DNA from: Enterobacterales bacterium
Lineage (GTDB): Bacteria; Pseudomonadota; Gammaproteobacteria; Enterobacterales; Enterobacteriaceae
Direction: 5' to 3'
Assembly (NCBI GenBank): GCA_015655145.1
Contig: JAATFO010000101.1
Span: forward strand, 1-59,060
Length of the DNA: 59,060 nt
A program made the position numbers and the translations under genes. This document shows positions 40,990 to 58,063 of the stretch, one piece after another; position 1 is the first letter of the stretch; the number at the start of each line of letters is the position of its first letter. The notes below the pieces were generated by a model. It did not search any database. It worked only from the letters and a program-made list of their open reading frames with translations, and had not been told where the DNA came from.

Positions 40990-40998
40990 AAAAACAGC

Positions 40999-41027
40999 TT
41001 GCGCTAACTGACTGTCTGGATTAGATT
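40999..41027 (+). promoter_or_regulatory. Possible promoter for the tRNA pair
   Basis: A TTGCGC -35-like and TAGATT -10-like element with 17-base spacing lie 14 bases before the first tRNA. Matches to consensus are partial (3/6 and 4/6). Confidence 0.3.
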
Positions 41028-41040
41028 AACAGCCTCTCGT

Positions 41041-41116
<76 letters not shown>

Positions 41117-41117
41117 C

Positions 41118-41191
41118 GCGACCATCGTATAATGGTATTACCTCAGCTTCCCAAGCTGATGACGCGGGTTCGATTCCCGCTGGCCGCTCCA
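41118..41191 (+). tRNA. tRNA-Gly (anticodon CCC), with an acceptor-stem mismatch
   Basis: A 74-base tRNA with encoded CCA. The body (D arm ATCGTATAATGG, T arm GCGGGTTCGATTCCCGC) follows the glyT type, which normally reads TCC, but the anticodon loop is TTCCCAA, giving CCC. The acceptor stem GCGACCA/TGGCCGC has one A-C mismatch at the fourth pair; all other pairs are good. It may be a functional variant or an early-decay copy. Confidence 0.88.
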
Positions 41192-41487: not shown

Positions 41488-42405
41488 TTAGCTTTCGAGC
41501 AGCGCAGAAAGCGTTTGTTCCATGCCGGCAATATTTGCTGCTTTCGGCAAAATCACCTCGCGCTTAAAACTGCCGGTAGCCGCATAAATATTAAGCAGAT
41601 CACGTACCGATCTGGCTTCTGCTGCAATACGATTACTGAGTTTTTCTGCCTCAGAAAAAGCGGGATTTTGCTGCAAAAATTTTGCAAAACAGATTCTGGA
41701 TCCCAGGATCACGGAAAAAACGTGCGCCATGCTCTCCACGCTGGTTTTATTCTTTTCCATTGTGGCGATATCTTCGAGGATTGTGAAGTTATCACTGCGG
41801 TTAATCCGGCTGTTAGCAAAAAGCAAACCGACCGCCGGGTTGTTGCCTTCTCCATTTTCCGCAGGCAGCTTTTCAAATACCCGAAAGACTTTTTCTTTTG
41901 AGGCATTACAAATTTCGGAAAGATATTCACCGGTAAAGGTGAACTTCGCCAAATGACCAGAAGACACATCATCAATCGCCTGCCACGCCCCATTTTCCAC
42001 ATCATATGAAAGTAACGTAACAAAGTGGTTGATATGTTTTTTATAATAAAATTCTGGACGGTGTGGCACCAGAAAAACGTCACAAGAGACCAGAACAAAA
42101 GAATCTCGGTTAATCGCATCAACCAGTTGCGGAATAGCCTCTTCAAATGAGCGATATTTTATTTCAGAATACTTTATCCCGATCGTGACATAATCTCTGA
42201 CCATCAAACCGTCATAAATAAAATCGTAGCGTGGTATTTGCTTTAAAAATACCTGTTCTCTGATAATATCAGTGCTGATTTGAGCATTGTAAAATAAGTT
42301 TGCGGTTTTACAGCCGAACGATTCTAAAGCCACGATACCTTGCCGCTGAGAGCAATTCAGGAAATTCCTGTTGTAAACGTCGCGTTCATATTCAAACTCA
42401 ATCAT
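41488..42405 (-). CDS. BtrH-like cysteine acyltransferase/peptidase-fold protein
   Basis: A 305-residue protein. A candidate catalytic triad of the C39-like fold is in place: Cys18 (NFLNCSQRQGIVALESFG), His127 (KKHINHFVTLLSYD) and Asp145 (AIDD). This resembles the BtrH N-terminal family, whose founder moves an amino-acyl group from a carrier protein to the amine of butirosin. The cluster has a carrier protein, so this enzyme may release the product by passing it to an amine. I chose the ATG at 42405, which has AGGAG at 42411-42415; the frame is open to 42579 but that part has no ribosome site and poor composition. Last gene of the cluster and clearly AT-richer than the middle genes. The family call is from motif order and fold pattern, not from close identity. 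Confidence 0.65.
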   Translation of the reverse strand: MIEFEYERDVYNRNFLNCSQRQGIVALESFGCKTANLFYNAQISTDIIREQVFLKQIPRYDFIYDGLMVRDYVTIGIKYSEIKYRSFEEAIPQLVDAINRDSFVLVSCDVFLVPHRPEFYYKKHINHFVTLLSYDVENGAWQAIDDVSSGHLAKFTFTGEYLSEICNASKEKVFRVFEKLPAENGEGNNPAVGLLFANSRINRSDNFTILEDIATMEKNKTSVESMAHVFSVILGSRICFAKFLQQNPAFSEAEKLSNRIAAEARSVRDLLNIYAATGSFKREVILPKAANIAGMEQTLSALLES

Positions 42406-42410
42406 TTCAA

Positions 42411-42415
42411 CTCCT
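42411..42415 (-). promoter_or_regulatory. Ribosome binding site fixing the start of the BtrH-like gene
   Basis: AGGAG on the minus strand, five bases before the ATG at 42405. It rules out the longer in-frame start at 42579. Confidence 0.7.
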
Positions 42416-42553
42416 GCATTATTAACTTTCTTTTTTAACAATAAGAACAACGCGTTATCATTACCGGACAGCCGTATTCTTATCAGAATGAGAGCGGCAT
42501 TGTGTATTTTCGCCCGCGTACCCGAGGTAAGCGGGCGGGTGTGGTTACTGTTG

Positions 42554-43510
42554 TTATCGTTTACCAGAAGAGTATTCATTACCGTCTGGAGGCATAAAAT
42601 CCGGCTTTCTTTTTCTCATCCAGAAGTTAGCCAGTAAGATAGACAAACAGGTGGTAATGATGAACAGCGGCACCCAGAAAGAAGGCCAACCTTTGGTGAA
42701 CATTTCAATGGTTAATGCAATCGCCGGAATAAATGGCGTAATAATGGAAACCCTTGGCGCACCCAGTTTCTGAACGGAATATTGTAAAGCAAATACCGGT
42801 ATAACCACGGAGATAAATGCCAGGAACAGCAATTTAACCAGCATAAACGAATCCATCGTGGTGATACTAACCAGATCTCTGGCACTAATGACAGCCGTGA
42901 CAACTAACAACAGGAAAAAACGGTTACACAGAATTTCCAGCGTGCTGGCACCATAGTTATACAGTTTCGCAGAGCGGAAAACATAGATCCCCCCAGTCAG
43001 CCCCCCCGTGACAGCAAGGAAAATCCCGAGTTTTAACTCATCCGCAGTGAAATTAAACACGCCGGCTGCATAATATAACCGGAAAATAACCAGCGCAGTG
43101 AGGTTAATGGCTATCAGGAAGATCCCCAACGCACGCTTGCTGAACACGTTGACTTTACCGGCGATCAGTTCACACAACAGCACCCCGATTGGCAGCGATC
43201 CCTGAAATACCGCACACTCGATAGAGGGTTCAATTTTGTACAGCGAGAGGAAAGCAAATAACCAGCTGGTCAGTGTCAATACATTTAAGATCAGCATTTC
43301 ACCAAAAAAGACGCGGGTTAATTTAAATACATGACCTCCCGATCTTTTCTGGAAAAAGACAAACACGCAAAATGCCACGAATAACGAAAAGAAGGTAACA
43401 ACAAAACCGCTAATGCCGGTAAACGAGAAAGAAATCCATACCGCAGAGAGTGCGGTACAGATACAGTACATAAAAATAGAAAAAGGCGCGAGTAACTTTC
43501 CAGAATTCAT
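42554..43510 (-). CDS. DMT/EamA-type membrane transporter, likely product exporter
   Basis: A 318-residue protein with ten predicted helices in two five-helix halves, the EamA/DMT layout. It has the typical mid-protein repeat (LKLGIFLAVTGGLTGGIYVF). DMT proteins often export amino-acid-like metabolites, so a self-protection or export role in the cluster is likely. A 197-base gap before it and a 148-base gap after it (to the next start) are the largest in the cluster; an extra promoter could lie in the first. Both this and the last gene are AT-richer than the rest. Confidence 0.85.
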   Translation of the reverse strand: MNSGKLLAPFSIFMYCICTALSAVWISFSFTGISGFVVTFFSLFVAFCVFVFFQKRSGGHVFKLTRVFFGEMLILNVLTLTSWLFAFLSLYKIEPSIECAVFQGSLPIGVLLCELIAGKVNVFSKRALGIFLIAINLTALVIFRLYYAAGVFNFTADELKLGIFLAVTGGLTGGIYVFRSAKLYNYGASTLEILCNRFFLLLVVTAVISARDLVSITTMDSFMLVKLLFLAFISVVIPVFALQYSVQKLGAPRVSIITPFIPAIALTIEMFTKGWPSFWVPLFIITTCLSILLANFWMRKRKPDFMPPDGNEYSSGKR

Positions 43511-43707
43511 ATCAACACTCTCATCAATAACATCATAAAATGCGAATACAGCGATGAGTCAACATTGCCCCTCAGCGCCTATAGTCAACCGTTTTATCCG
43601 ACGGAAGACGTGGAAACGGATAACATTCCCGCCGCTCATCAGTCACTCAACGCAATTCGCCTCTCACTTCATGCTTAATGTTCAGTTAACCCGTAAGCAA
43701 CGCAGCG

Positions 43708-44940
43708 TTATGCCTCCCGCATCTTGCGTTCAGACGCATTCTGCCGAATTTTGCTAATCAAGAATTTATTCTGAAAAGCCGCAGGTAAGATTAATCGCCC
43801 CGTCAAGTCACGGTACTGACGCTGTAATTCAGGATCGTTGAGGATGGTCCGAAAGGTCGATTTTTGTCCCTGATCGTCTTTCGCTATCCGCGCGTCAGCA
43901 ATAATGCCGCGCGCGTGGAAAGGGAAATACGCATTAAACTGACGCTGATAAGCCTGCAAAGCCCGTTGAGTATTGACTGCACCCTGCTGCAGCGTCGTTT
44001 CCACCGCCTGGGCCAGCATCGCCGCGGTTTGCAGCGCAAAACTGCATCCCACGCCACTCATCGGATCAAGTGATAGCGCCGCATCACCAATAAAAGCCAC
44101 ATCCTGGCAGATCGGCTGGCGCGTCAGGTTCGGGTAATCCCGATACCCCATCACCTGAGTTTCAAAGGTCACATTATTCATGGCAGGCATTGCGGGAACG
44201 CCGGCAAAGAACGCCACCAGACTGGCCTTCACATCCTGCTGATACCACTGCTGTGCGGTCTCTTTGCCGATATACGCTGACAACAACGTACGTCCATTAA
44301 TTAATGGATAGAGAAACGCCATACCGCTTTGATGATGAGCAAACAGCGAACGGTTATCCGCCGGTGCCTCAATACCACTGCAATAAGCGAAACAGGTGGC
44401 CCGCTGGTTTTCATGGCTCTGTAGCGGATTATCCAGTAACCGCGCCAGTAGTGACATTCTGCCGTCCGCCGCGATCAGGAAACGCCCTTCAACGCTCAAC
44501 GTTTCCTCTTTCCTTTCTACCGTCAACTGCCATCCCTGCGGCGAACGCTGAACGTCCATGACCCGTTCCGCATAGCCGATTTCAACACCACATTCCTGTG
44601 CCTGCTGGCGCAGTGCGGGATCCAGTACCGACCGCTCAAGATTGAGCGCGTACTGCTCGCTGTCGGCACCATAAAATCCGTCGGGATCGATAATACCGGC
44701 TGGGGTGATAAAGGTTGCCCGGGTACGCACGCTGTAGTCACGCGCTGCCAAATACGCCATACCCAACTGGCTTAACACCGGCACGGCGGAGGGCTGAATA
44801 AAGTGAGTACACAGTTTTTTATAGGATGACGCTGACGGAAGCTTTTCAATCACTCTGACGCTCAGCCCCAGTTTGCGTAACAGGATGCTGGAAGCAGCAC
44901 CGCTGGCGCTGGCGCCGACAATAACCACATCATAGATCAT
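43708..44940 (-). CDS. FAD-dependent monooxygenase/reductase (PHBH/geranylgeranyl-reductase-like)
   Basis: A 410-residue single-component flavoprotein. N-terminal FAD loop VIVGASASGAASSILLRKLG (variant GxSxxG), and the second FAD motif FIGDAALSLDPMSGVGCSFA, as in PHBH-fold hydroxylases and tryptophan-halogenase relatives. No halogenase WxWxIP motif is seen. In the pathway it could hydroxylate or desaturate the carrier-bound or free hydrazine intermediate, for example to a hydrazone or azo group. It overlaps the aminotransferase gene by four bases. Confidence 0.85.
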   Translation of the reverse strand: MIYDVVIVGASASGAASSILLRKLGLSVRVIEKLPSASSYKKLCTHFIQPSAVPVLSQLGMAYLAARDYSVRTRATFITPAGIIDPDGFYGADSEQYALNLERSVLDPALRQQAQECGVEIGYAERVMDVQRSPQGWQLTVERKEETLSVEGRFLIAADGRMSLLARLLDNPLQSHENQRATCFAYCSGIEAPADNRSLFAHHQSGMAFLYPLINGRTLLSAYIGKETAQQWYQQDVKASLVAFFAGVPAMPAMNNVTFETQVMGYRDYPNLTRQPICQDVAFIGDAALSLDPMSGVGCSFALQTAAMLAQAVETTLQQGAVNTQRALQAYQRQFNAYFPFHARGIIADARIAKDDQGQKSTFRTILNDPELQRQYRDLTGRLILPAAFQNKFLISKIRQNASERKMREA

Positions 44941-46298
44941 TGTGTGGCTCCTGCATGGCGCAGGATGTCGTCGTGCGCGATTAACGGTAAAGGTGTTGCC
45001 TCAGCGTCGGTTAAGCACGCTTCCATTGCCCGCGTCAGGATCACCAATCCTGCCAACAGCGTTTCCTCAGAAATAGTCAGGGCTGGCATAATCTTAATCA
45101 CCTGATCGCGCTCACCGGAACGTTCGACAATAAGCTGCTGCCCGAAGCAATACCCGGTGATCTTCTTCGCCAGCTCAGGAGAATAGAGTTCAATACCATA
45201 AAACAGGCCGCGCCCACGGGTCTGTTTGATAAAGCGGGGAAAACGCGCTGTTATCCCCTCCAGCCACTGTTGAACCACCTTTTCCTGACGAAAAATATGC
45301 TCACTGAGCTGATCATCTCGCCAATAATTTTCCAGTGCCACTTTAGCGGTAACAAAGGCCGTGGTATTGCCACGGAAGGTGCCGTTATCTTCACCGGGTT
45401 TCCACTGATCCCAGCGAGGTTTAAACAACAACAGTGAGAAAGGCAGTCCGTAACCGCTCAGGGATTTAGACAGGCACACCATATCAGGCTGAATACCGGC
45501 AAACTCAAAGCTGAAGAAATGACCAGTACGCCCGCATCCGGCCTGAATATCATCAATAATCAGCAAGATATCATGATGTTGCAATAGTGTATGTAAACGT
45601 TGTAACCAGGTTTTTGAGGCCACATTAATGCCACCTTCGCCCTGCACTGTTTCCAGAATTATCGCGGCAGGAATATCCATTCCCGAGCTGTTATCCGTTA
45701 ACAGCTTTTCGAAATAGGCGATAGTGTCCAGCCCTTCCAGGTAGCCGTCATACGGTAGCCGGAATACATGGGAATCAATGGCACTCTGCCGGTTATCACG
45801 ATTACCGGTCAGCCCCAGTGCGGTATTGGACATTCCGTGAAAGCCATTGGTAAATGCCACCACATTGGTCCGGTTTTTCACCTTGCGCGCCAGCTTAATG
45901 GCGGATTCCACCACGCTGGTGCCGGTCGGCGAAGTAAACTGCATTTTGTAATCAAGTCCGCGTGGTTGCAGAATGATAGCGTTAAATGCCGTAATAAATT
46001 CCGCTTTGGCAACCGAATGCATATCCAACGCCGCCTGAATACCGTCAGCCGACAGATAAGCGATCAACGCCTCTTTCAAGGCAGCCGGATTATGACCGTA
46101 ATTCACCGATCCCGCGCAACTGAGAAAGTCCAGCCATGCGTTGTCATGCTGATCGTAGAGATAGCTCCCTGAAGCCCGCTGAAAGATCGCCGGGAAATTG
46201 CGACAATAGCTTCTGGCTGAGGACTCATGATCGGAAAAAACGTTAAGTGCATTGTTATTTTCAGGCGTAGTCATAGCAATTTCTCTGTAAATATTCAT
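44937..46298 (-). CDS. Class III aminotransferase, diaminobutyrate-2-oxoglutarate type
   Basis: A 453-residue PLP enzyme of the EctB/DABA-aminotransferase branch. PLP lysine Lys278 (CLSKSLSGYGLP), PLP-contact motif IIDDIQAGCGRTGHFF, and SPTGTSVVESAIKLARKV near residues 123-140. The family makes L-2,4-diaminobutyrate from aspartate semialdehyde. Here it may supply a diamine for the N-hydroxylase or transaminate another omega-aldehyde, such as the semialdehyde left after oxidative cleavage of a hydrazine-linked lysine. Start at 46298 is supported by the ATGA overlap with the hydroxylase stop; an ATG at 46274 is possible. Confidence 0.88.
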   Translation of the reverse strand: MNIYREIAMTTPENNNALNVFSDHESSARSYCRNFPAIFQRASGSYLYDQHDNAWLDFLSCAGSVNYGHNPAALKEALIAYLSADGIQAALDMHSVAKAEFITAFNAIILQPRGLDYKMQFTSPTGTSVVESAIKLARKVKNRTNVVAFTNGFHGMSNTALGLTGNRDNRQSAIDSHVFRLPYDGYLEGLDTIAYFEKLLTDNSSGMDIPAAIILETVQGEGGINVASKTWLQRLHTLLQHHDILLIIDDIQAGCGRTGHFFSFEFAGIQPDMVCLSKSLSGYGLPFSLLLFKPRWDQWKPGEDNGTFRGNTTAFVTAKVALENYWRDDQLSEHIFRQEKVVQQWLEGITARFPRFIKQTRGRGLFYGIELYSPELAKKITGYCFGQQLIVERSGERDQVIKIMPALTISEETLLAGLVILTRAMEACLTDAEATPLPLIAHDDILRHAGATQ

Positions 46299-47632
46299 GA
46301 CAGGACCGTTTTTTTGGTCAGTTGCCGATCCAGTGACTGTAAAATTTCCTGTGAACGTAGCGACAGCAGGCTGAAAGAGCCGGCATCACCATAACCATGT
46401 GACGATTCACACAGCCCGTTCAGGAATAGCGGAGGCAGTTGCTCCTGCGCACTGGCAGACTTAAGGCTGTAATCCCGCTCTAATTTGACGAATCCACCGT
46501 CGTTATTTTTCGCCAGCAGAGGATAGAGATCGGTCATTAACGGCGGACAAAGTTCGTCGTTTTCTCCGTTACCGAAATTACGGAACCCGGTTGCCAGCAC
46601 GATGCCATCAATATTATCGAGTGTAAGTTGTTCACCCGTATTCACTTCCCGAATCTGCAGCTGGCAGTCGTGTTCATCCTCACTGTAATTCAGAATTTCC
46701 TGGCAGGACCAGATTTTCACCGGCGTTTTACCCTGCAATTTGTCTTCATACATGCTCATGTAGAGCTGATGAATGACATCTTTATCGGCGGCAGAGTAGT
46801 TAGTGAAATGCAGTTGCTGGTTAAGCCGTTTTTTCCCACTTGCAGAAGCATTAAAATAGTAGTCTACGAACTCAGGGAAATAGACATGATCGCTGAACGG
46901 GCTGGTATCTTTCAGGCGAAAACCATAAGCGCGCTGAATATTAATAATGTCCGCATTCGGATAGTTTTGACGTAAATGAAGAATGATTTCTACCGCACTC
47001 TGACTTCCCCCTACCACAACAATTCGGTTCAGCGGTTTTTGTTCGTTTAACTGGTGAAGCGTCTTTAAATAACGGGTTAGATGGAAAACACGATGAGGAT
47101 GCGCCTTCTCAAAAACCGTTGGGATCATGGGCGTGCGACCCGGTGCCACCACCACTGAACGGGAGAAGTACACCTCATTTTTATCGGTCTCAATCCGATA
47201 ATATTTTTCGTTGTGATGATTAACCAGCGTCAGTTTTTTGACACTACGACCATAGCTAATCTGATGAGAAAAGAAACTTGCCACCCATTGAACATATTCG
47301 GCAAACTCGCGACGTAAAGGGAATTCCAGACCCAGGTTAAGATGCTCAAACAGTCTGTTATTTTCAAATAAGAAATTGGTAAAAGTATAGCGGCTGCGCG
47401 GATTACGCGGCGTCACTAAATCACGACAGGGGTTATTCTGAATATCGCTTCCCGACAACAGCATTTGCGGTTGCCATTCGGTTTTAGTGTTGCGTTCCAG
47501 AAACAGACAGCGGCCGCTAAATTGTGCTTCTTCCATCGCAATGGCCAGCGCAATATTGGCAGGACCAAAGCCGATGCCAATCACATCATACAGGTCACCA
47601 TTAACTGCTTCATTATCAATGGATACAGACAT
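46295..47632 (-). CDS. L-lysine/L-ornithine N-monooxygenase family enzyme
   Basis: A 445-residue flavoprotein of the IucD/SidA/PvdA group. FAD motif IGIGFGPANIALA (residues 18-30), NADPH motif VVVGGSQSAVEI (about 200-211) and the C-terminal LATGFRN. These enzymes hydroxylate the side-chain amine of lysine, ornithine or a shorter diamine. In siderophore systems this feeds hydroxamates, but no IucA/C synthetase or hydroxamate NRPS is present here; next to MetRS-like, cupin and DadA-like partners it fits the N-hydroxylase of hydrazine-forming pathways. Substrate length (Lys, Orn or diaminobutyrate) cannot be told by eye. Confidence 0.9.
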   Translation of the reverse strand: MSVSIDNEAVNGDLYDVIGIGFGPANIALAIAMEEAQFSGRCLFLERNTKTEWQPQMLLSGSDIQNNPCRDLVTPRNPRSRYTFTNFLFENNRLFEHLNLGLEFPLRREFAEYVQWVASFFSHQISYGRSVKKLTLVNHHNEKYYRIETDKNEVYFSRSVVVAPGRTPMIPTVFEKAHPHRVFHLTRYLKTLHQLNEQKPLNRIVVVGGSQSAVEIILHLRQNYPNADIINIQRAYGFRLKDTSPFSDHVYFPEFVDYYFNASASGKKRLNQQLHFTNYSAADKDVIHQLYMSMYEDKLQGKTPVKIWSCQEILNYSEDEHDCQLQIREVNTGEQLTLDNIDGIVLATGFRNFGNGENDELCPPLMTDLYPLLAKNNDGGFVKLERDYSLKSASAQEQLPPLFLNGLCESSHGYGDAGSFSLLSLRSQEILQSLDRQLTKKTVLS

Positions 47633-47657
47633 TTTTTGCCCCCCTTAAAGTCAAAAA

Positions 47658-48026
47658 TTATTGCGTGATTTCTTCGGTATTACCGACATAATCCCAGCGC
47701 GATATCAGGTCACCATTAAACGTTAAAATTTCGAAAATTTTACTTCGGTATGCTTTGCTATTTTCACGGTTGATATAGCGGGCAATAACTTCAATGCATA
47801 CGGTATCCCCCTGAGTAAGGATGATTTTTTTATCTAACTGGTAATCAGATAACACTTGATAACGGGGTAAAAGGAATGACAGTAACGCCTCTTTTCCGTG
47901 AATGACGTCCAGCTGATTATATTTCACCACCACGTCATCGGTAAAACAGGAGGCAATTAACTTCATATCAAGCGTACGGAATTTATCGCGCACCACAGAT
48001 ACACGCACGGAATAGTCTACATGCAT
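47658..48026 (-). CDS. NTF2/SnoaL-like small protein
   Basis: A 122-residue protein with the cone-fold pattern of SnoaL-like proteins: an N-terminal helix with FRTLDMKLIASCFTDDVV, then HGKEALLSFLLPRYQ, and beta strands ending FEILTFNGDLISRWDYVG. Such proteins act as isomerases, cyclases, dehydratases or binding proteins in biosynthetic clusters. The ATG at 48026 is preferred to an upstream TTG (48050). It lies 25 bases before the N-hydroxylase gene, and 94 bases after the rhodanese gene, a minor break in the operon. Confidence 0.7.
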   Translation of the reverse strand: MHVDYSVRVSVVRDKFRTLDMKLIASCFTDDVVVKYNQLDVIHGKEALLSFLLPRYQVLSDYQLDKKIILTQGDTVCIEVIARYINRENSKAYRSKIFEILTFNGDLISRWDYVGNTEEITQ

Positions 48027-48120
48027 AGTTTTATCTGACCATATCAGCAAATAATTAAAACTTAACAGGCATCCGTACTATTATTTAAATAATACGGATG
48101 GTAATTCTGTATTCTGATCC

Positions 48121-48519
48121 TCAGCAACCGCAGGAAACCGGCGTACCTTCTTTCCCCTCGATACCCTCAGTGGAATAATTATCGCGTTTCCACCAGTCAA
48201 GCCCACCCAGCAATTCTTTTACCTGAAAACCCAGCGTCATCAGTTTCAGCGCAGTTTTTGTCGAGGCATTGCAACCAATGCCGTCACAGTAGCAAATATA
48301 TATTTTTGTTTTATCTAACTTTTCCGTGTTATTAAAACAGATTTCTTTATGAGGCTGGTTAATCGCCCCCGGAATATGTTCTCTCTGGTACGCCTCTTTA
48401 CTGCGTCCATCAACCACAACGACATTTTCGTTATTCTTTAATGCCAGATACAGATCCCATGAGTCTGTTTCGTAAGCCAATTTTTTTTGATAATAAGATA
48501 ACTGTTCAATCGCTGACAT
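48121..48519 (-). CDS. Rhodanese-domain protein with Cys-Gly-Cys tail
   Basis: A 132-residue single-domain rhodanese. Features in order: VVVVDGRSKEAYQREHIPGA (CH2A-like motif), the active-site loop YICYCDGIGCNAS, then LGGLDWWKRD, ending in PVSCGC. Rhodaneses carry persulfide sulfur on the loop cysteine; the extra C-terminal CGC could take over the sulfur or bind a metal. In a biosynthetic cluster this hints at sulfur in the product or at repair/recycling. The ATG at 48519 overlaps the hydrolase gene by 14 bases; longer open frame upstream is the antisense-free read-through of that gene. Confidence 0.85.
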   Translation of the reverse strand: MSAIEQLSYYQKKLAYETDSWDLYLALKNNENVVVVDGRSKEAYQREHIPGAINQPHKEICFNNTEKLDKTKIYICYCDGIGCNASTKTALKLMTLGFQVKELLGGLDWWKRDNYSTEGIEGKEGTPVSCGC

Positions 48520-49417
48520 AATAACTCCATTGTTTACAGGTAAGTTTGTGCTCAACATCCAACGCCGCAGCAATCTGTTCAACGGCCTCGCAGGAACTAC
48601 CGAGTTTGCCGGCATACAGACAAAAGTCATGGGGCAATGCCGGATGATGATAATGTTGTAATGATGCCCCCGCCTGGCGGGCGAGCGCGGCGAAAGTGAA
48701 GCCTTCATCCACCAGCACATCATATCCGGCGGTGTGCAGCACGACAGGTGGCAGCCGGCTGAAAGCATAATCTGACGCCAGCGGGTCAAACTGCTGACGA
48801 CGACACCAGGGAAGCCAGTGTTCGGCAAACCAGCGCAGTATGGCGGCATCCAGGAGATAACCTTCGCCATAACGCCGGAAAGAATCAAAATTGTGATGGC
48901 TCGCCAGCACCGGATACAGCAAGTGGATCCGGGAAAAAGCCTGACTGAACGCTGAACCAGCAAACCAGAGCGTTAACAGGCCGCCCACGCTGTCTCCCAT
49001 CAAACAGGGCGCGGCGTCAACATGGTTAAGCTCGGCGGATAGCTGATGTTCCAGGTGGCCGACGATCTCAGTCATTGGCGTTTCCGGCGCTTTTGGATAA
49101 TCAAATGCGCGGATCTCCCGCCCGCTGATATGCGCCAGCGTGCTTAAAAAAGCGCTGAATACCTCGGTAGAGTAATAAACGAGGCCGCCGCCATGCAGAT
49201 AAAAAATCGGCTCAGCATTCAGCAATTTTTCGGGGATAAAGCGGCGCACATAGCCGGTCACCACTGTTTTCCCGCTCAGCGGTGCCGATACATTTGCTAT
49301 CCAGCGCGCCGCACGCCGACGACCATAGTCGGATTCATGTTGCGGCCCCTTGCCAACAAACAGTCGCCGGGCAGCCAGCAGATTGGCAAAATCCCTTGCC
49401 AGCGGCACCGTATTCAT
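48506..49417 (-). CDS. Alpha/beta hydrolase (HSL/esterase-acetylhydrolase type)
   Basis: A 303-residue serine hydrolase: oxyanion motif YLHGGGLVYY (HGGG at 75-78), nucleophile Ser143 in GDSVGG, and the acid and base in AGYDVLVDEG and LPHDFCLY. The hormone-sensitive-lipase family cleaves esters and amides of small acids, and could remove the protecting acyl group set by the GNAT enzyme or release a carrier-bound product. It overlaps both neighbours (4 and 14 bases). Confidence 0.88.
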   Translation of the reverse strand: MNTVPLARDFANLLAARRLFVGKGPQHESDYGRRRAARWIANVSAPLSGKTVVTGYVRRFIPEKLLNAEPIFYLHGGGLVYYSTEVFSAFLSTLAHISGREIRAFDYPKAPETPMTEIVGHLEHQLSAELNHVDAAPCLMGDSVGGLLTLWFAGSAFSQAFSRIHLLYPVLASHHNFDSFRRYGEGYLLDAAILRWFAEHWLPWCRRQQFDPLASDYAFSRLPPVVLHTAGYDVLVDEGFTFAALARQAGASLQHYHHPALPHDFCLYAGKLGSSCEAVEQIAAALDVEHKLTCKQWSYYVSD

Positions 49418-50340
49418 ACGCTCACCTCCGGAGTAAGAACAATCTGCAGTCCACGATGCGTGGCCTGCCAGAGTGAAAAACTGGCGGGATGGCTCTCACG
49501 TTGTGCATCAAACTTCAGCGTCCCCAACAGGGTTTTCGCAGGAAAATCAGGATACCGGCAGGCAACCTGCAAGGCCGCCATGGTTTCCCAAAAATAGCAT
49601 CCCGGCGTTCCCCCCCAGCGCTGGCGCCAGGCGGCAAACAGTGTGGAAGCCTGTTCGCCGGTGGGTTGCGGGGCTATCGCCGCCACATAAATCTGTCGTG
49701 AAGCTAAGTCGATGCCGCTGGCCAGCAGTGCGGGCACCAGTTTTGCAGAAAACGCATCATCCGCCAGAATCAGACGGGCGCCTTCAGGGGAGCAATGTGC
49801 CCAGAGGAGCGCGCGCTCCAGCGCATAGCGAAAGCTACCGGCAAAAAAAGTCGTCGCCGCTTGTTGTGGGTGCTCTGCCGGTTTTATCGCGGCACTCAGC
49901 CGGTGCGCCACACTTTTACCGTGTACCGAACCATCGTGATCAATGGCCACGGCATCCGACTCCTGAGACGTCAGTAGCGGTAATAACCAGCAAACATAGT
50001 CTTCATCGTTATCACATAAACGCCAGGTTGTAGAATACGTGGTCAGGTGTTTCGCTGTTGCCGCCGGTAAAAACAGGGGCAAATTATGCTGCGCGTACAG
50101 CGGTGCCGCTGCTTCTGCGCAAGCCGAGGCAAAATGCCCGACAATGGCATCGGGTGACCAGGCCACTATCTGCCGGGCGGCTTCAGTGGCTCTCCGGGCA
50201 TCGGCATTATCATCAAACAGTTTCAGCGTGACCTGTGGCGGCAGTAGAAATTCCCGGGCCAGCTCCATGGCACGCAGCCAGGTGATGGTGTGGACGGACT
50301 TGTTTTCGTCCATACAGGCAACGCAGGCCAGCCTGTTCAT
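49414..50340 (-). CDS. Type I periplasmic-binding-protein-fold protein without signal peptide
   Basis: A 308-residue protein with the two-lobe layout of Leu/amide-urea binding proteins (Peripla_BP_6): LKLFDDNADARRATEAARQI and VAWSPDAIVGHFASACAEAA are the first-lobe signature, and PLFLPAATAKHLT follows. The N-terminus (MNRLACVACMDENKSVH) is not a signal peptide, so it should stay in the cytosol, unlike true transport receptors. No ABC permease is in the cluster. It may sense or sequester a pathway amino acid, or have become an enzyme. ATGA overlap with the upstream gene supports the start at 50340; it overlaps the hydrolase by four bases. Confidence 0.8.
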   Translation of the reverse strand: MNRLACVACMDENKSVHTITWLRAMELAREFLLPPQVTLKLFDDNADARRATEAARQIVAWSPDAIVGHFASACAEAAAPLYAQHNLPLFLPAATAKHLTTYSTTWRLCDNDEDYVCWLLPLLTSQESDAVAIDHDGSVHGKSVAHRLSAAIKPAEHPQQAATTFFAGSFRYALERALLWAHCSPEGARLILADDAFSAKLVPALLASGIDLASRQIYVAAIAPQPTGEQASTLFAAWRQRWGGTPGCYFWETMAALQVACRYPDFPAKTLLGTLKFDAQRESHPASFSLWQATHRGLQIVLTPEVSV

Positions 50341-51383
50341 TGCAGATACTCGCAAATCTGTTGGCTGAACTGGCGCGCCGCATCAGGAATATATTTCGCC
50401 CCACGCCCTGAAAAACCACAGAACAGCGCCAGATGGCGTTCGGCTATCAGTCTGGTCTGCGGCAGGAAGTCAGCGGTGTAACCATCATAGCCGTCCCAGC
50501 CATGACTGAGCTGTAACGGGACGTCTGGCAGCATCTGCTGCGCTAACTGCAAATTGGCCGGGTGCACGCCACGGGTCTGCGGCAATGCTGCGGGCGCAGT
50601 TGCATCATGCTGTGGCGCACCGCCGGCAAAAACAAAGGAGGTTGATCCCGGGCGCATATAGCTGCCGCTGTATTCATCGATCAAACAGGTTTGCGGCGCC
50701 TGTGCGCCTGTGCTGTAGAGGGTACTCAGCGGGATTGAGCGACTGAACAGCGGGATTTCGGGGATCAGCGTACGACTGTGGGCGCCCGCTGCCACCACCG
50801 CCAGTCGGGCAGTTAATACCTGGTGCTCAGTATGAACACTGACTCCGTTGCTTTGCGATTCAACACGCTTCACCTGTACGCCTTCCAGCAGTTCCGTGCC
50901 CTGCTCCCGCGCCTGATGCGCCAGTAACTGACAGGCCAACCGGGGGTTAACGTATCCTCCCTGCGGTTCATGAAGAATGCCCGCCTGTGACGGGATATTC
51001 AGTCCCGGCATCACTCTTTGTGCCTGATGGCGGGAAATTAACGCAATGGGATACTCAGACGAAGAAAACGCCCGCAACAGCCCCTGCGCGCCCTGAATAT
51101 GCTCCTCTCTGAGCAGGTAGATAATCCCACACTGACGGAAGATCCCCGGCCAGCGCTGATTCAGCCGCCGCCATTCACGCACGCCACCCACGTTATATTG
51201 CATCAGTGTGGGACTGGGATCGTACACCCGCACAATACCGCGCGAACAGGCGCTGGCACCACCACTACCGGGCTCGGCTGACTCCAACAGCAGAGTGCGC
51301 AGACCCGATTGACTGATATTTTCAGCCAGCGCACTGCCAGCAAGACCGGCACCGATAATAATGATATCCCAGTGGTTCGCCAT
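50337..51383 (-). CDS. DadA/glycine-oxidase-like FAD amine oxidase
   Basis: A 348-residue DAO-fold flavoenzyme. FAD loop IIIIGAGLAGSALAENIS, substrate-side HEPQGGYVNPRLACQLLA, and C-terminal CGFSGRGAKYIPDAARQF. In the s56-p1, triacsin and formycin-type pathways an enzyme of this family oxidises the N-N-linked lysine adduct, so that a hydrazino acid (hydrazinoacetate) is released and a semialdehyde is left. I infer the same role here. It differs from the D-amino acid dehydrogenase at 38732, which belongs to another operon. The start is set by the TAATG junction with the carrier-cupin gene. Confidence 0.87.
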   Translation of the reverse strand: MANHWDIIIIGAGLAGSALAENISQSGLRTLLLESAEPGSGGASACSRGIVRVYDPSPTLMQYNVGGVREWRRLNQRWPGIFRQCGIIYLLREEHIQGAQGLLRAFSSSEYPIALISRHQAQRVMPGLNIPSQAGILHEPQGGYVNPRLACQLLAHQAREQGTELLEGVQVKRVESQSNGVSVHTEHQVLTARLAVVAAGAHSRTLIPEIPLFSRSIPLSTLYSTGAQAPQTCLIDEYSGSYMRPGSTSFVFAGGAPQHDATAPAALPQTRGVHPANLQLAQQMLPDVPLQLSHGWDGYDGYTADFLPQTRLIAERHLALFCGFSGRGAKYIPDAARQFSQQICEYLQ

Positions 51384-52036
51384 TATTGCCCAGCCTTTTC
51401 TTCTTCCTGTGCCAGATAAGCGCGTGCTCCCGTCTGATTCCACCAGATGGTAAAGAAGTGGAAAGATTGGTCGCTGTTGTTACGCACATAGTGATGACTG
51501 CCGCGCGGGATAAAGATTTGGTCGCCCTGGGTAAACGGATACTCTTTACCCTCGATCACCACCAGAGCCTGGCCCTGGATACCGACAAAAAGCTCATCTT
51601 CATCATTCGGCTGGTTGATATGTGGCAGTGTTTCGGTGAGCGGGCGAACGATGCAATAACCAGAGCCGATTGGCGTATTCACATTTTCCCAGGGAAAGGT
51701 GCGAATGCCGTCCAGACCATATTCGTAATGCAGTGCCTGCTGAGAGAAAAATTTGATATTAGCCGGTGCGGCATTGTCAGGCTGGCTGTCGGCGCTGAAC
51801 TTTGCCGCCAGTTCACAGAGATCGCCGATCGTTTTCAGCCCATCGATTTCACTGACAAAATTTTCCAGTTCAACCTGATAATCTGTCGCCAGTGCCAGCA
51901 ACACATTAATGGTGGTCAGGGAATCAATCCCTAATGTGTACAACTCAGTCTCTTCTTGCAGTTGCACGTCCTGCGAAAACGTTACCGTTGCGCGGATAAC
52001 CTTTTCTACACGCGTTAAATAAGCCTGATGACTCAC
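51383..52036 (-). CDS. Acyl carrier protein fused to a cupin domain
   Basis: A 217-residue two-domain protein. Residues 1-80 are a carrier domain with the phosphopantetheine serine Ser39 in TLGIDSLT. Residues about 100-205 are a single cupin: H139 and E148 in LPHINQPNDEDELFVGIQG, G156-type turn, and H181/H182 in PRGSHHYVRN give a likely metal site. In known hydrazine synthetases the cupin is fused to, or works with, the MetRS-like domain; here it is joined to the carrier instead and the MetRS-like protein is separate. This suggests that N-N bond formation or rearrangement takes place next to, or on, the carrier. Overlaps its neighbours by four bases and one base. Confidence 0.9.
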   Translation of the reverse strand: MSHQAYLTRVEKVIRATVTFSQDVQLQEETELYTLGIDSLTTINVLLALATDYQVELENFVSEIDGLKTIGDLCELAAKFSADSQPDNAAPANIKFFSQQALHYEYGLDGIRTFPWENVNTPIGSGYCIVRPLTETLPHINQPNDEDELFVGIQGQALVVIEGKEYPFTQGDQIFIPRGSHHYVRNNSDQSFHFFTIWWNQTGARAYLAQEEEKAGQ

Positions 52037-53661
52037 GCATCACCTCGATTCATTGGAGTAAAACTGCCGCCCTGACGGCGGATGAAATAACGTGACCGTT
52101 GCTGACTTGCAGCATCAACCAGTTGATCTAACAATTTTTTTTCGTCAGTTTTGCCATTGGCGCTTAAATTGACTTCTTCTGCCCAGCCCCATAACGTTGG
52201 CAACATATAACGCGGTAATTCCGCTGCCAGCGAGGTCTCAATATTGACCAGTTCACCGCTTTCTTTGCCAGTAATGACCATGGCGATATGATCTTTGCCG
52301 TCCAGTTGCACTTTACGGATCGCCACGCGCTGAGCGCCACTGGCGGCCAGGCATTTCTGGCGAATCTCGCCGAGGTGAATACGACGGCCGGCAATTTTGA
52401 CTTCATCATCGCGGCGGCCCACGTATAAAATATTGCCGTCCGCCTGGTACAGGCAGATATCACCGGTGCGGTAATAACGCGTGCCCTGATGTTCGAAAAT
52501 GACTTTTTCCGTTTCCTGTGGCTGTCCCAGATAGCCCTTCATCACCAGATCTCCACCAATGCACAGCTCACCGGCAATATCCGTACCCTTCTGAACGTGC
52601 TGATTTTCATCGAGCATCAGGCAGAAAACGTTCTGCAGAGGAACACCAATTGGCCAGCTTATTGTGCGCTGCTCATCCGGTTGTTCAATTTCATAACAAC
52701 AGCACACAATGGTGGTCTCTGTCGGGCCATAGGCATTAATCAGGCGTACCGCTGGCAGATTCTGCTTCCATAAATTGATGATTTTAGGATCGCAAACTTC
52801 AGCCCCGGTCATCACCATTTCCAGCATCGGAAAATGCTCTGCCGTAATGTGTTTGCCATTTTCGGTAATCAGGGAGAGCAGTGTAGAAACGGCGATAAGA
52901 TGGGTGATCTTTTCCCGAATGATGATACTGCGCATGATGGCACCGGCATGTACGCTGGCAAATTGCCAGACAAAAGCCCCCAGTGACAGCGGCAGTAACG
53001 TGTCTTCAATGGAAACATCAAAATGAAACGGCGACAGGCTGAATACGCGCGAATCAGGCGTAAATTGCAGCCATTGATTATGCGCGCCAAAATAGGTTTT
53101 CAGGCTGTTGGCGCTAATTTCAACCCCTTTGGGTTCACCCGTTGATCCTGAGGTAAAAATGATATAAGCCGTATCATCCGACGCATGTTGATATACGGGT
53201 AATATTCCTTCCGCGGGTACAGACCGCCGGCACACCGCGAGTAGCGCTTCGCCACTTAACCAAATCCCCGAGTTATCCAACGGAGGGTGGGAAATAGCCA
53301 GCACGACTGGCGCATCCAGTCGGGCAAGCAGTTTGCGGATACGTGCTTGTGGCAACTGGCCGTCAAGGGGAACATAGACCGCGCCCAGCTTCCAGCCGGC
53401 CACCGCTATCACGGGCATAATGGCGCATTTTTCCGCCAGTACAGGGATGCAGGCCCCCGGTTTCACCCCATTCTGCGACAGCCATAGCGCCAGACTGGTC
53501 GCCATATCATCCAACTGTGCAAAGGTATAACTTTGTTTACCATCGTTGATAGCCAGCTTTTGCGGGTTACGTGATCTGCCGAACGCAAATAATTCGCCCA
53601 GTGGGTAGTCGCTAGTTTGCCCGGCATCGGATTTATAGGCCCAACGAGGTAATATTGTCAT
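52033..53661 (-). CDS. Stand-alone adenylation enzyme (NRPS A-domain type)
   Basis: A 542-residue ANL enzyme with all core motifs: IIFTSGSTGEPKGVEIS (A3), NAYGPTETTI (A5), GELCIGGDLVMKGYLG (A6), YRTGDICLY (A7), VGRRDDEVKIAGRRIHLGEI (A8) and the A10 lysine region SANGKTDEKKLLDQL. It activates an amino or hydrazino acid as AMP ester and should load the carrier protein encoded four bases downstream. In triacsin biosynthesis a comparable ligase loads acylated hydrazinoacetate. The substrate is not read here; the binding-pocket Asp region is FHFDVSIEDTLL. Confidence 0.92.
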   Translation of the reverse strand: MTILPRWAYKSDAGQTSDYPLGELFAFGRSRNPQKLAINDGKQSYTFAQLDDMATSLALWLSQNGVKPGACIPVLAEKCAIMPVIAVAGWKLGAVYVPLDGQLPQARIRKLLARLDAPVVLAISHPPLDNSGIWLSGEALLAVCRRSVPAEGILPVYQHASDDTAYIIFTSGSTGEPKGVEISANSLKTYFGAHNQWLQFTPDSRVFSLSPFHFDVSIEDTLLPLSLGAFVWQFASVHAGAIMRSIIIREKITHLIAVSTLLSLITENGKHITAEHFPMLEMVMTGAEVCDPKIINLWKQNLPAVRLINAYGPTETTIVCCCYEIEQPDEQRTISWPIGVPLQNVFCLMLDENQHVQKGTDIAGELCIGGDLVMKGYLGQPQETEKVIFEHQGTRYYRTGDICLYQADGNILYVGRRDDEVKIAGRRIHLGEIRQKCLAASGAQRVAIRKVQLDGKDHIAMVITGKESGELVNIETSLAAELPRYMLPTLWGWAEEVNLSANGKTDEKKLLDQLVDAASQQRSRYFIRRQGGSFTPMNRGDA

Positions 53662-53720
53662 CGTGATATCCTGTCTGTTTATTTTTTCGGCAAAAAACCA
53701 TCACCACGGCATTATGCCTG

Positions 53721-54185
53721 TCACAGGCGATTCCTCTGGCGCAGCGTAAAGCGGATCTTGTTGAGGCTGGTCGCACCAAGATGCTGATAAAAACCAATAC
53801 CGAGCTGGTTATCCGGCGGCGTCTGCCACTGAATTTCCGCGCACTGCTGCTGTTCAGCAAAATCAATTAAGGTGTTCATTAACTGCCGCCCGATACCCTG
53901 CCCGCGTAAATCTGCGGTTAAATACAGGCAATCCATATAGACAAACGGTGCCGCAGACCACGTGGAGTAATCAATGGTGGCGGATAAATAACCGTGCAGA
54001 TCATCGTTATCACCAGCCACTACCCAGATAAACAATCGGGCGGGCTGGCTGAACAGCACCGTCTGTAAGCGCTGATGCTGGCCGTTATCGCGGTAGCTTA
54101 ACTTCTCGTATTCGGCATGTTCAGCACACAAGACAACCAGCCGGGCAAGATCGTCAGGTTTGACTGGTCGAATATTTAAACCCAT
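53721..54185 (-). CDS. GNAT-family N-acyltransferase
   Basis: A 154-residue GNAT protein similar in layout to diamine acetyltransferases: N-terminal IRPVKPDDLARLVVLCAEHA, central YMDCLYLTADLRGQGIGRQL (acyl-CoA loop QGIG), and C-terminal GIGFYQHLGA. It may mask the terminal nitrogen of a hydrazino acid with an acyl group before loading, as the GNAT N-succinyltransferase does in triacsin assembly, or act as a resistance enzyme by acetylating the product. It overlaps the upstream gene by 10 bases; 59 bases separate it from the adenylation gene. Confidence 0.87.
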   Translation of the reverse strand: MGLNIRPVKPDDLARLVVLCAEHAEYEKLSYRDNGQHQRLQTVLFSQPARLFIWVVAGDNDDLHGYLSATIDYSTWSAAPFVYMDCLYLTADLRGQGIGRQLMNTLIDFAEQQQCAEIQWQTPPDNQLGIGFYQHLGATSLNKIRFTLRQRNRL

Positions 54186-54640
54186 CCGCTGTACCCCTGT
54201 TGCAAATAACGTTGGACATTCGCATCCTCAAGTTTTTCTGTGGTCATCACCTGCGCTATCCAATAGCTACGCTCATAGAACATCACGGCCAGCTCCCAGA
54301 CGCAGGCAATGATTTTTGTGCTGTCTAAGGGCTGTAAGCGGTTTTCATTGTCGAGAGTAAATACCCGGTGGCGCAGCATATTGGCATCGCACCAGGTGCT
54401 GATCAGCAAATAGTGACCGTCATCAGCGGCGTGAATAATGGCAAAGCCAATATGATGTTCTCCGGGAAAATCCGCTTCATCCAGCCCCTGCGTCAGCCAC
54501 TGACGCTGAAGTTCAGCGTCAGGAACCGGCGCCGCCGCCTGCTTTTCGCTGGTGAGGTAATACATTTTTATCTGCGCCTGCCCGATGGCTTGCGTGCCGA
54601 GAAAACTCACCGCGCGTTTCTGATAATTAAGCGGGTTCAT
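54176..54640 (-). CDS. Unrecognised cluster protein, 154 residues
   Basis: I do not recognise a family. The protein is mixed alpha/beta, without signal or membrane segments. It has a His/Asp-rich centre (GEHHIGFAIIHAADDGHYLL), a Trp/Cys stretch (STWCDANMLRHRVFTLD) and an aromatic C-terminus (GYSGWV). It overlaps the MetRS-like gene by 14 bases and the GNAT gene by 10, so it is translated with both, and it was probably selected to work with the MetRS-like protein. The ATG at 54640 is chosen because an upstream extension would lie entirely within the MetRS-like gene. Confidence 0.7.
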   Translation of the reverse strand: MNPLNYQKRAVSFLGTQAIGQAQIKMYYLTSEKQAAAPVPDAELQRQWLTQGLDEADFPGEHHIGFAIIHAADDGHYLLISTWCDANMLRHRVFTLDNENRLQPLDSTKIIACVWELAVMFYERSYWIAQVMTTEKLEDANVQRYLQQGYSGWV

Positions 54641-56087
54641 GGAGTACCCTCGCAGACTGCACGCCGGAGGCGGGTGCAGAGAGGATCGTGCCTGAGAAGT
54701 CAGGGCACAAAGGCTGAACCAGTTCGGCCATGATCTGCCAGGCTTCAGGCGCAACAGACAGTACATCATCCGACTGAATAAACCCGGAAAAATCCAGCAC
54801 GGCCCGCGCCATACCCGCAATCGAAAATGCCTCAAGAGAGGACGCCTGCTGCCAGTTCAGGCAGGCCGGGTGGCTGCGTAAACGCTGCAGTTGTTCGGTG
54901 GCGAGGGTGATGCCGGAATCGGTGACCTGTTCAGCCTGTTTGACCAAAGGCAGGAAGATGTGGTGATACCAGTGCTGAAACTGTTCACGGCTGAAGTTAC
55001 TGACTGCGAATTCAGGTGCGGTTAACGCACTGAACAGGCGGATGGCGTCAGAGGGATATTGCCCGGTCAGATCTTTGATCCAGACAGCGTGCCCGCGGCT
55101 GGTGGAAAAATCTTCACCATCCAGTTTAAGAAAGCGATTAGTAATAAAAGTACCCGGACGAGGCCCGGTTTGATCGGCCAGCAACAAGCTACTGTAGCCA
55201 ACAGCATGGCTGTAGGAACAATCAAAACCCAGCAAATGAACCAACTCAGTATCGGGTGCCCACCACGCGGCAAACTCACCACGTTCAGGATGCGCGGCCA
55301 GATAGCTCTCAACGCAGCTTCTGTAACCAGACAGCCCCATAAACCAGGTATGCAGTGGATAATTATCCAGTGCGGCAATCGGTACACCGGCATCACCCGG
55401 GCGGGTCAACGGCCACTGTTCATTCTCGTTGCTCAACACCTCGTCAAGATAATCTTTCAGACAGGGGCGCAGCGGACGCTGCTGTAAAGCGGCTTTGACC
55501 GCCGGATAATTCTGACCGATCTTCCAGATATGTTGTTTTACCTGCACCGGTTGCATCGCACCCTGGCAGGACATACAGGTCATTGCGGTAATTTTTTCAA
55601 TATCAGGCACGCGGGCGCAGTGTTCACACTGGCTGGTGTCTGACGAGGTTCCACACCAGTTACACTGGGTTCTGCCAAAGCCTTCGTAACCATACAGATT
55701 GCAGGCGGCACAGTAAAAAGTCTTATACGCCTTAAGTTCGATCTGCCCGGCGATCAGCCCCGCATAATGTTCGCCTGAATGCTGATAAGCCGGCGTATCG
55801 GCAGCCTGCATAAAGGTATCAAAACGGATATTAACCAGTTCCAGAGACAACTGCATTGCCTGACGCATCAGGCGGGCATACGCAAAAGGCTTTCTGCGTA
55901 ATGTCTGGGTTTTTCGGGGTAAATAACTTTGATAATCATCGCTATAGGTCACAAACAGCACATCATGTCCCAGCTGTTTGAGTCGCCGTTGCATCACATC
56001 AGCAGCCAGGAAAGGCCCGGAAAGGTGTCCGAGATGGAGATCACCATTTGGCGTTGGCGGGGTTGCTGTAACGATAAACTTTGCCAT
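54627..56087 (-). CDS. Methionyl-tRNA-synthetase-like protein of hydrazine-synthetase type
   Basis: A 486-residue class I synthetase. HLGH at residues 18-21 (HIGH box), eight cysteines in four CxxC pairs at 126/129, 142/145, 154/157 and 171/174 (two zinc knuckles as in MetRS), and a KMSKS-like loop DFSTSRGH at 326-333 in which the first lysine is lost. A reduced helical C-terminal part follows (to 486). It is clearly shorter than E. coli MetRS (677) and its place in a biosynthetic operon rules out housekeeping use. In s56-p1-type pathways the homologous domain activates an amino acid (glycine) and joins it to N-hydroxylysine together with a cupin. First gene of the cluster. I chose 56087, where the conserved N-terminus starts (MAKFIVTATPPTPNGDLHLG). 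Confidence 0.9.
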   Translation of the reverse strand: MAKFIVTATPPTPNGDLHLGHLSGPFLAADVMQRRLKQLGHDVLFVTYSDDYQSYLPRKTQTLRRKPFAYARLMRQAMQLSLELVNIRFDTFMQAADTPAYQHSGEHYAGLIAGQIELKAYKTFYCAACNLYGYEGFGRTQCNWCGTSSDTSQCEHCARVPDIEKITAMTCMSCQGAMQPVQVKQHIWKIGQNYPAVKAALQQRPLRPCLKDYLDEVLSNENEQWPLTRPGDAGVPIAALDNYPLHTWFMGLSGYRSCVESYLAAHPERGEFAAWWAPDTELVHLLGFDCSYSHAVGYSSLLLADQTGPRPGTFITNRFLKLDGEDFSTSRGHAVWIKDLTGQYPSDAIRLFSALTAPEFAVSNFSREQFQHWYHHIFLPLVKQAEQVTDSGITLATEQLQRLRSHPACLNWQQASSLEAFSIAGMARAVLDFSGFIQSDDVLSVAPEAWQIMAELVQPLCPDFSGTILSAPASGVQSARVLHEPA

Positions 56088-56980: not shown

Positions 56981-57018
56981 TCTACGCCGGAACTGCCGAA
57001 ATTTCCGGCACGAGGTTT

Positions 57019-57291: not shown

Positions 57292-57347
57292 TTTACCTCC
57301 TCGTTAGCGTCAGAGGAGGCATTTGCCCCCTCTGATACCCTTCGTCA

Positions 57348-58061: not shown

Positions 58062-58063
58062 GG

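Follow-up and report, generated by a model that had tools for sequence, protein, structure and literature searches.

A conserved 15-gene operon of an enterobacterium predicted to make a hydrazine natural product

The window analysed here is the whole of a 59,060-nucleotide stretch (contig JAATFO010000101.1, assembly GCA_015655145.1) from a member of the Enterobacteriaceae. Its minus strand holds, at 41488-56087, 15 closely packed genes (g01 to g15; 14.6 kb), mostly with overlaps of a few bases, and these are one conserved operon. As judged from its genes, the operon rather probably makes a hydrazine, i.e. a natural product with a nitrogen-nitrogen (N-N) bond, built on 2,4-diaminobutyrate. The N-N reading of the core genes is well supported by their sequences, and a new product is plausible. 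Natural products with N-N bonds are rare and often bioactive, and much of the characterised enzymology behind them comes from actinomycetes.

In Xenorhabdus sp. TCT-1, plasmid pXT29 holds all 15 genes in identical order, their proteins being 80–93% identical to those of the window, so that the grouping is not due to chance. In addition, chromosomal loci of two further enterobacterial genomes, G017 and LSJC7, carry the full set in unchanged order; their rhodanese gene, skipped by the open reading frame (ORF) filter, was recovered from the homology hit list. Pfam and NCBIfam searches confirmed the gene list of a preliminary description (methionyl-tRNA synthetase (MetRS)-like protein, N-hydroxylase, cupin, GNAT, adenylation enzyme, carrier and the others), all of them overlapping or close-set, and added three genes to it, namely g02, g07 and g10.

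The predicted hydrazine synthetase

The first gene, g01 (54627..56087, its ATG read at 56087), encodes a MetRS-like protein of 486 amino acids that is predicted to be the amino-acid-activating half of a hydrazine synthetase (tRNA-synt_1g 171.5 bits; motifs PPTPNGDLHLGH and DFSTSRG). In a tree of 64 rows, one of them a housekeeping MetRS, g01 groups with its relatives from similar gene cassettes and with P0031, a MetRS-like protein of Ralstonia pseudosolanacearum that is 50% identical to it; Pseudomonas and azaserine types lie further out, and the genome's own MetRS, encoded on the separate contig C52 and 24% identical to g01, is far away. The preliminary description had singled out a grouping with ordinary MetRS proteins as speaking against an N-N cluster; none was observed, and g01 falls with hydrazine synthetases by tree and motifs. 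PPTPNGDLHxGH (PPTTNGD or PPTSNGD in three) and (K/D/N)(F/L)STS are common to the rows of the g01 family that are long enough to show the motif. The housekeeping MetRS motifs are LPYANGPIHLGH and KMSKSRG, and g01 has neither the KMSKS nor the LPYANG motif of the housekeeping enzyme. Its KMSKS-like motif begins with Asp throughout the window's clade; many Pseudomonas rows have Asn there, and the azaserine type has Lys (KFSTSR).

The predicted N-N-forming partner is one half of g05 (51383-52036), a fusion of an N-terminal carrier (51797..52036, GIDSL motif; PP-binding 20.2 bits, just below the cut-off of 20.8) and a C-terminal cupin (51401..51739; Cupin_2 44.7 bits). The fusion is found in the enterobacterial cassettes except that of Pantoea Cy-639, the carrier being separate in Vibrio and Janthinobacterium, and ACPS-family (carrier-modifying) genes are present elsewhere in the genome. 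The best solved relative of the cupin half is plu4264 of Photorhabdus (PDB 4mv2, E 6e-31). The motif of the g05 cupin reads H-x-N-x-P-x-D-E-x-E, with a 3-residue insert. According to PMC8664883 (cited, like PMC10445470, PMC11705231 and PMC12283262 below, from a part of its text), the zinc ligands are D63, H65, E69 and H103 in RHS1 of Rhodococcus and H50, H52, E56 and H90 in PyrN of pyrazomycin biosynthesis; RHS1 requires all four of its ligands, its H65A variant failed, and PyrN H52A kept less than 3% activity. The cupin alignment did not include RHS1 or PyrN, and by correspondence with these published residues the window's clade keeps the first His, the catalytic Glu and the last (distal) His, with three additional residues and with Asn at the position of RHS1 H65, where Pseudomonas rows have Gln.

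As a side observation, plu4264 (PDB 4mv2/4q29) agrees in nearly every letter with a cupin of Photorhabdus bodei (L029:9642-9992), whose gene adjoins those of a MetRS-like protein, N-hydroxylases, an EctB-like protein and a DAO oxidase. By this context plu4264 likely serves as the cupin part in a hydrazine synthetase. In a literature listing, plu4264 is mentioned by three papers.

Relatives of g01 are encoded in 239 stretches from genomes of named species; counts out of 80 loci refer to the best 80 of these 239. MetRS-like, cupin, oxidase and N-hydroxylase genes co-occur in 67 of the 80. The earlier view of the genes as a hydrazine-synthetase-type cluster in an enterobacterium stands, on the phylogeny and motifs of the MetRS-like protein, the homology of the cupin and a gene content kept across Proteobacteria.

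Substrate, loading and alternative pathways

In the predicted pathway the EctB-type g12 would supply L-2,4-diaminobutyrate, the flavin enzyme g11 would hydroxylate its side-chain nitrogen, g01 would activate a second, probably small amino acid and form an ester with the hydroxylamine, and the cupin half of g05 would rearrange this ester to a hydrazine. The oxidase g06 would then cut one C-N bond, the hydrazine likely staying on the diaminobutyrate skeleton as L-2-amino-4-hydrazinylbutanoate, an ornithine look-alike; the GNAT g03 would acylate a nitrogen, preventing early ring closure, and g04 would load the resulting alpha-amino acid onto the carrier half of g05. Finally, g13, g08, g09, g10 and g02 would finish the molecule on or off the carrier, g15 would transfer or release the acyl group, and g14 would export the product. 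The steps up to the rearrangement are proposed from homology to characterised enzymes, those from g06 to loading from the g04 code and a parallel with actinopyridazinone, and the last ones are a guess from family names.

The substrate is suggested by g12 and g11. g12 (44937..46274) lies above the cut-off of the EctB model (TIGR02407, 657 versus 552.2 bits), which bears out its earlier naming as a diaminobutyrate-type aminotransferase. g11 (46295..47632; Lys_Orn_oxgnase 291.2 bits) is predicted to be a diaminobutyrate N4-hydroxylase. In a tree of 55 N-hydroxylase rows, the clade of g11, with 15 rows, comes entirely from loci with an EctB-type gene (Shimodaira-Hasegawa-like approximate likelihood ratio test (SH-aLRT) 99), and the 32 rows whose loci lack such a gene all fall outside it. 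The lysine-type N-hydroxylase of azaserine falls in a different clade, g11 being 24% identical to AzsL. Because of the EctB-type gene and a hydroxylase clade tied to such genes, 2,4-diaminobutyrate is more likely than lysine to be the hydroxylated amino acid, and the lysine or ornithine proposed earlier is not borne out. A precedent exists in actinopyridazinone biosynthesis, in which Apy11 is a diaminobutyrate hydroxylase, Apy9 joins its product to alanine, and Apy11, Apy9 and Apy10 together make L-2-amino-4-hydrazinylbutanoate from diaminobutyrate and alanine (PMC11705231).

The loading enzyme g04 (52033..53661) is a free-standing adenylation enzyme of the nonribosomal peptide synthetase (NRPS) type (AMP-binding, AA-adenyl-dom; TIGR01733 330.9 bits, cut-off 317.4) with the code DVETMGAIVK, read at the positions that match the pocket of gramicidin synthetase. 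Adenylation domains that act on alpha-amino acids are marked by Asp235 and Lys517. Of the 12 further cassette loci, which belong to alpha-, beta- and gamma-proteobacteria, 11 have exactly this code and L016 differs from it by one letter; near-copies are among these loci, and overall identity of g04 drops to 44–53% in the more distant of them. DVETLGGISK, which PMC12283262 gives in its ornithine section and also for an amino-nitropentanoate unit, and the arginine-type consensus D-A/V-E-D-I/V/L-G-A-V/I-T/D-K of the same paper each agree with the g04 code at 7 of 10 positions. The code is a better fit to L-2-amino-4-hydrazinylbutanoate, an ornithine isostere, than to hydrazinoacetate.

Several points weigh against this reading. 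The KMSKS-like motif of g01 lacks the lysine that the azaserine type has, and in PyrN, which was itself not in the alignment, the variant K458A of the corresponding lysine had negligible activity (PMC8664883). The metal-site His (RHS1 H65/PyrN H52) is Asn in g05, in addition to the 3-residue insert, and the g05 cupin matches RHS1 (5uqp) at E 0.35 only. The Asn site and the DFSTSR motif, both of which may bear on activity, are shared by all members of the window's clade and are therefore not the decay of one copy. As to the substrate, eight N-hydroxylase rows from EctB-labelled loci fall outside the clade, being second N-hydroxylases in four loci and the enzymes of four Bacillota loci, and the Bacillota loci whose N-hydroxylases lie outside have an EctB-like aminotransferase that is 29–30% identical.

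A route of the hydrazinoacetate type is unlikely, if the best of the alternatives. Here a cut by g06 on the diaminobutyrate side would give aspartate semialdehyde, to be re-aminated by EctB, and a hydrazino acid such as hydrazinoacetate, on which GNAT, adenylation enzyme and carrier would act as in triacsin and azaserine. Indeed, EctB would close a cycle from aspartate semialdehyde to diaminobutyrate, and a GNAT, an adenylating enzyme and a carrier recur in azaserine clusters (PMC10445470). However, g04 is of NRPS type with an ornithine/arginine-like code and so is not the triacsin/azaserine loader: it is 29% identical to the NRPS of azaserine (E 1e-52) and 23% to the AzsP loader (E 3e-8), and the azaserine loader lacks the Asp of the g04 code. 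The GNAT g03 (53721..54185; Acetyltransf_1 63 bits), which is retained in the cassette and predicted to acylate a hydrazine or amine, gave no BLAST match to AzsS at E<0.5, and domain searches found no acyl-CoA dehydrogenase of the Tri22/AzsF type among the 15 genes. Direct orthology of the loading genes to those of triacsin or azaserine was rejected on the comparisons of g04 and g03 with AzsP and AzsS, and on the same grounds, together with the missing dehydrogenase, the mask-and-load parallel with triacsin drawn in the preliminary description is not supported.

The oxidase also speaks against the hydrazinoacetate route. g06 (50337..51383, start codon read) is a DAO-family flavin adenine dinucleotide (FAD) oxidase (153.8 bits) whose predicted role is to break a C-N bond next to the hydrazine. 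Its earlier label as DadA-like was right as to the family; the models for N-methyltryptophan and sarcosine oxidases score above that for DadA. It stands in a group of its own with the cluster oxidases of Pseudomonas, Serratia and Vibrio, far from AzsM. A profile built from 12 rows (cassette and Pseudomonas-type oxidases) gives 375–470 bits for these rows, 227 for L070, 194 for L082, 175 for L136 (an EctB-bearing actinomycete) and 156 for L074, all outside the profile, and only 61 bits for AzsM and 18 for the oxidase of a Pantoea plasmid cluster described below.

More doubtful still is a hydroxamate or N-hydroxy amino acid without an N-N bond, in which g11 and the GNAT would make N-hydroxy-N-acyl-diaminobutyrate for loading by g04, the MetRS-like protein and cupin doing something else. 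Pairs of a GNAT and an N-hydroxylase do make siderophore hydroxamates, which counts in its favour. So does the resemblance of the g04 code to the ornithine-type code, given by PMC12283262 where it deals with hydroxyornithine and nitropentanoate units. Against it stand the 67 of 80 loci in which MetRS-like, cupin and DAO genes accompany the N-hydroxylase, and the standalone MetRS/cupin pair of Rhodococcus, which forms an N-N bond (PMC8664883). Finally, that g01 is a duplicate or resistance MetRS, as its database name suggests (methionine--tRNA ligase, NCBIfam NF008859, 674.7 bits versus a cut-off of 553), is extremely improbable and was rejected on the tree, the missing KMSKS and LPYANG motifs, the low identity to the genome's own enzyme and the adjoining g02, g03 and g04 in all nine cassette loci; the NF008859 names are probably wrong for this clade because motifs and tree disagree with them.

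Accessory genes, distribution and mobility

For a hydrazine built on diaminobutyrate the remaining genes would provide late steps and export. g02 (54176..54640), a 154-amino-acid protein between the MetRS and GNAT genes, has no Pfam or NCBIfam match; 17 proteins, its own included, score E<=0.001 among 24 candidates, and its AlphaFold2 model (predicted local distance difference test (pLDDT) 91.3) has no PDB match at E<=0.001. g07 (49414..50340) is like the periplasmic binding proteins (Peripla_BP_6 32.0 bits, cut-off 31.7), with no evident signal peptide; a rough count, based on start positions that are uncertain, gave 8 hydrophobic N-termini among 72 proteins of its type. A homologue is present in 70 of the 80 loci, accompanying the oxidase in proteobacterial hydrazine clusters, and the Pantoea plasmid cluster has one too. 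g08 (48506..49417; Abhydrolase_3 95.1 bits) is an alpha/beta hydrolase of the HSL type, predicted to be a deacylase or release enzyme, and g09 (48121..48519; Rhodanese 56.1 bits) a single-domain rhodanese whose loop CDGIGCNAST is kept in all 12 other loci with a match (G for A in three), some of these loci being from the same organism. g10 (47658..48026; SnoaL_2 36.4 bits) is SnoaL-like, and g13 (43708..44940; FAD_binding_3 76.2 bits) a QhpG/UbiH-like FAD monooxygenase whose best model, QhpG, gives 108.4 bits, below the cut-off of 240. g14 (42554..43510; EamA 34.6 bits) is a predicted DMT exporter. g15 (41488..42579), predicted to act in acyl transfer or offloading, keeps C76, H185 and D203 in 4 of 4 aligned sequences. 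As a BtrH-like protein it scores weakly: the window's copy stays below the BtrH_N cut-off (19.0 versus 29.7 bits), as does that of L109 (23.1), and the L110 copy has no match, but the Vibrio homologue passes (30.8).

g01 to g04 occur together in nine of the 80 loci (L009-L016, L019). Of g01-g13, Vibrio (L011) has 13, Janthinobacterium (L013) has 12, the roseobacters L014 and L015 have 12 each but differently ordered, and Pantoea Cy-639 (L012) has 11, several loci stopping at the border of a contig or fetched stretch. Many of the remaining loci are from Pseudomonas and Burkholderiaceae, with cupin, MetRS, oxidase, binding-protein-like and N-hydroxylase genes. The exporter varies (DMT in the window, MFS in Vibrio and Cronobacter), and the Cronobacter-type and Janthinobacterium cassettes have one additional alpha/beta-hydrolase-like gene ahead of the adenylation gene. 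In the window's own family g01 has a match at E<=1e-30 in 13 of 392 genomes, and in six, its own among them, the identity is 66% or more; one of these lineages resembles Cronobacter dublinensis, a named protein of that species being nearly identical. Named database proteins near g01 are from Xenorhabdus, Pantoea ananatis, Dickeya chrysanthemi, Salmonella enterica and Cronobacter. A search for a near-identical copy in E. coli gave no megablast match among 20,395 records, megablast detecting close DNA only. Contrary to what had been supposed, the family is not confined to actinomycetes: relatives occur in many Proteobacteria, and the review PMC11705231 lists members in Pseudomonas, Ralstonia, Colwellia and Mesorhizobium.

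Some further loci were noted in passing. Pseudomonas sp. R5(2019) (L073) has a remnant in which pieces of a hydrolase and a rhodanese gene come after a MetRS piece of 69% identity. Plasmid pOC5aB of Pantoea ananatis (L090) carries a second enterobacterial type of hydrazine cluster, with N-hydroxylase, cupin, MetRS-like, FAD oxidoreductase, MFS, ATP-grasp, binding-protein-like and GNAT genes, and three P. agglomerans plasmids carry it too, by match only. In the Cronobacter-type genome an AzlC/AzlD-like pair and a GNAT-like gene, named by eye, lie beside the cassette (L108:4083-8379, L109), and the locus has an upstream ORF of 249 amino acids without a Pfam match.

The DNA similarity of the window to pXT29, G017 and LSJC7 equals the operon, ending at 41486-41489 and 56092-56100, and the rest of the window has no match to these stretches at E<=1e-3. 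A tRNA-Lys and a tRNA-Gly gene (41041..41191, plus strand) adjoin the 3' end of the operon, and 2.7 kb past its other end, near the window's end, lies the C-terminal part of a resolvase/invertase (58796..59053, minus strand; Resolvase 31.0 bits, HTH_7 41.6 bits, PHROG 125). Upstream of the cassette on pXT29 there are genes for a member of the resolvase family and for a Tn3 transposase. A plasmid of Vibrio halioticoli (L091:7656-15429) has a Tn7-like set directly upstream, with TnsA, a Mu/TnsB-type transposase, a TniB/TnsC-type ATPase, TniQ and a TnsE-like protein (24.0 bits, below the cut-off of 26.7). From these comparisons we read the operon as having spread laterally as one unit, to unrelated sites in several enterobacteria. 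That the tRNA genes bear footprints of integration was considered and rejected, the direct repeats in 40900-59060 forming 15 families, all two-copy, of 22–27 nucleotides and 70–83% alike. Promoter and terminator scans of 55900-57100 were no better than shuffles. In the stretch that separates the operon from the resolvase piece lies an Hcp-like (T6SS_HCP) fragment (57348-57644), and the window also contains Type VI secretion genes (IcmF/TssM, TssF, TssG) with a Tle3-type effector at 34-12436.

Comparison with known systems

A close parallel by description is the actinopyridazinone system of Streptomyces (Apy9, Apy10, Apy11; PMC11705231): it has a diaminobutyrate hydroxylase and a MetRS/cupin hydrazine synthetase, as are predicted for the window, and both have a DAO-family oxidase, and the title of reference 180 of that review points to carrier-mediated later chemistry, which the window's carrier would parallel. 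In contrast, the window is enterobacterial, keeps its MetRS separate and its carrier and cupin fused, and adds g02 and the binding-protein-like, rhodanese, SnoaL, monooxygenase and BtrH-like genes. Triacsin and azaserine (reference locus L095, the azaserine-like plasmid of Streptomyces NBC_00158) share the MetRS-like protein (30%), cupin (27%), N-hydroxylase (24%), GNAT, adenylation enzyme and carrier, but they have a lysine-type hydroxylase clade and another loader and GNAT, and the operon has no counterpart of their acyl-CoA dehydrogenase, P450 and saccharopine dehydrogenases.

PyrN and the standalone Rhodococcus proteins with RHS1 (PMC8664883) use the two-step MetRS-like and cupin mechanism that is predicted for the window; they differ in the metal-site His, which is Asn in the window, in lacking the insert and in having no carrier domain fused to the cupin. 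Ral1-Ral2 of Ralstonia solanacearum CFBP2957 is an identified hydrazine synthetase (Table 2 of PMC11705231); the Ralstonia protein P0031 of the window's clade is not equated with Ral1 or Ral2. Por9/Por11 of Pseudomonas orientalis is described as a proteobacterial hydrazine synthetase taking N4-hydroxy-diaminobutyrate or N5-hydroxyornithine and glycine (PMC11705231). No homologue of g12 or g04 was found in the Pseudomonas loci among the best 80 of 239. No earlier description of this cluster was found by title in the open-licence PMC literature; the enzyme family is known, and it is the gene set and the diaminobutyrate/adenylation-domain logic that we did not find described there.

More tentatively, and with somewhat less than even confidence, we suggest that this is a mobile proteobacterial pathway for the ornithine aza-analogue 2-amino-4-hydrazinylbutanoate, with a dedicated adenylation domain, a carrier fused to the N-N cupin, a variant metal site and a lysine-free KMSKS-like motif, leading to a new class of N-N antimetabolites. 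As the operon is compact, occurs on a small plasmid too and is common to enterobacteria, its expression in E. coli should be easy. The pathway would yield an adenylation domain that selects a hydrazine amino acid and a variant metal site for an N-N-forming cupin, and it would assign functions to genes now filed as 'methionine--tRNA ligase' or 'hypothetical protein' in Xenorhabdus, Dickeya, Cronobacter and Pantoea.

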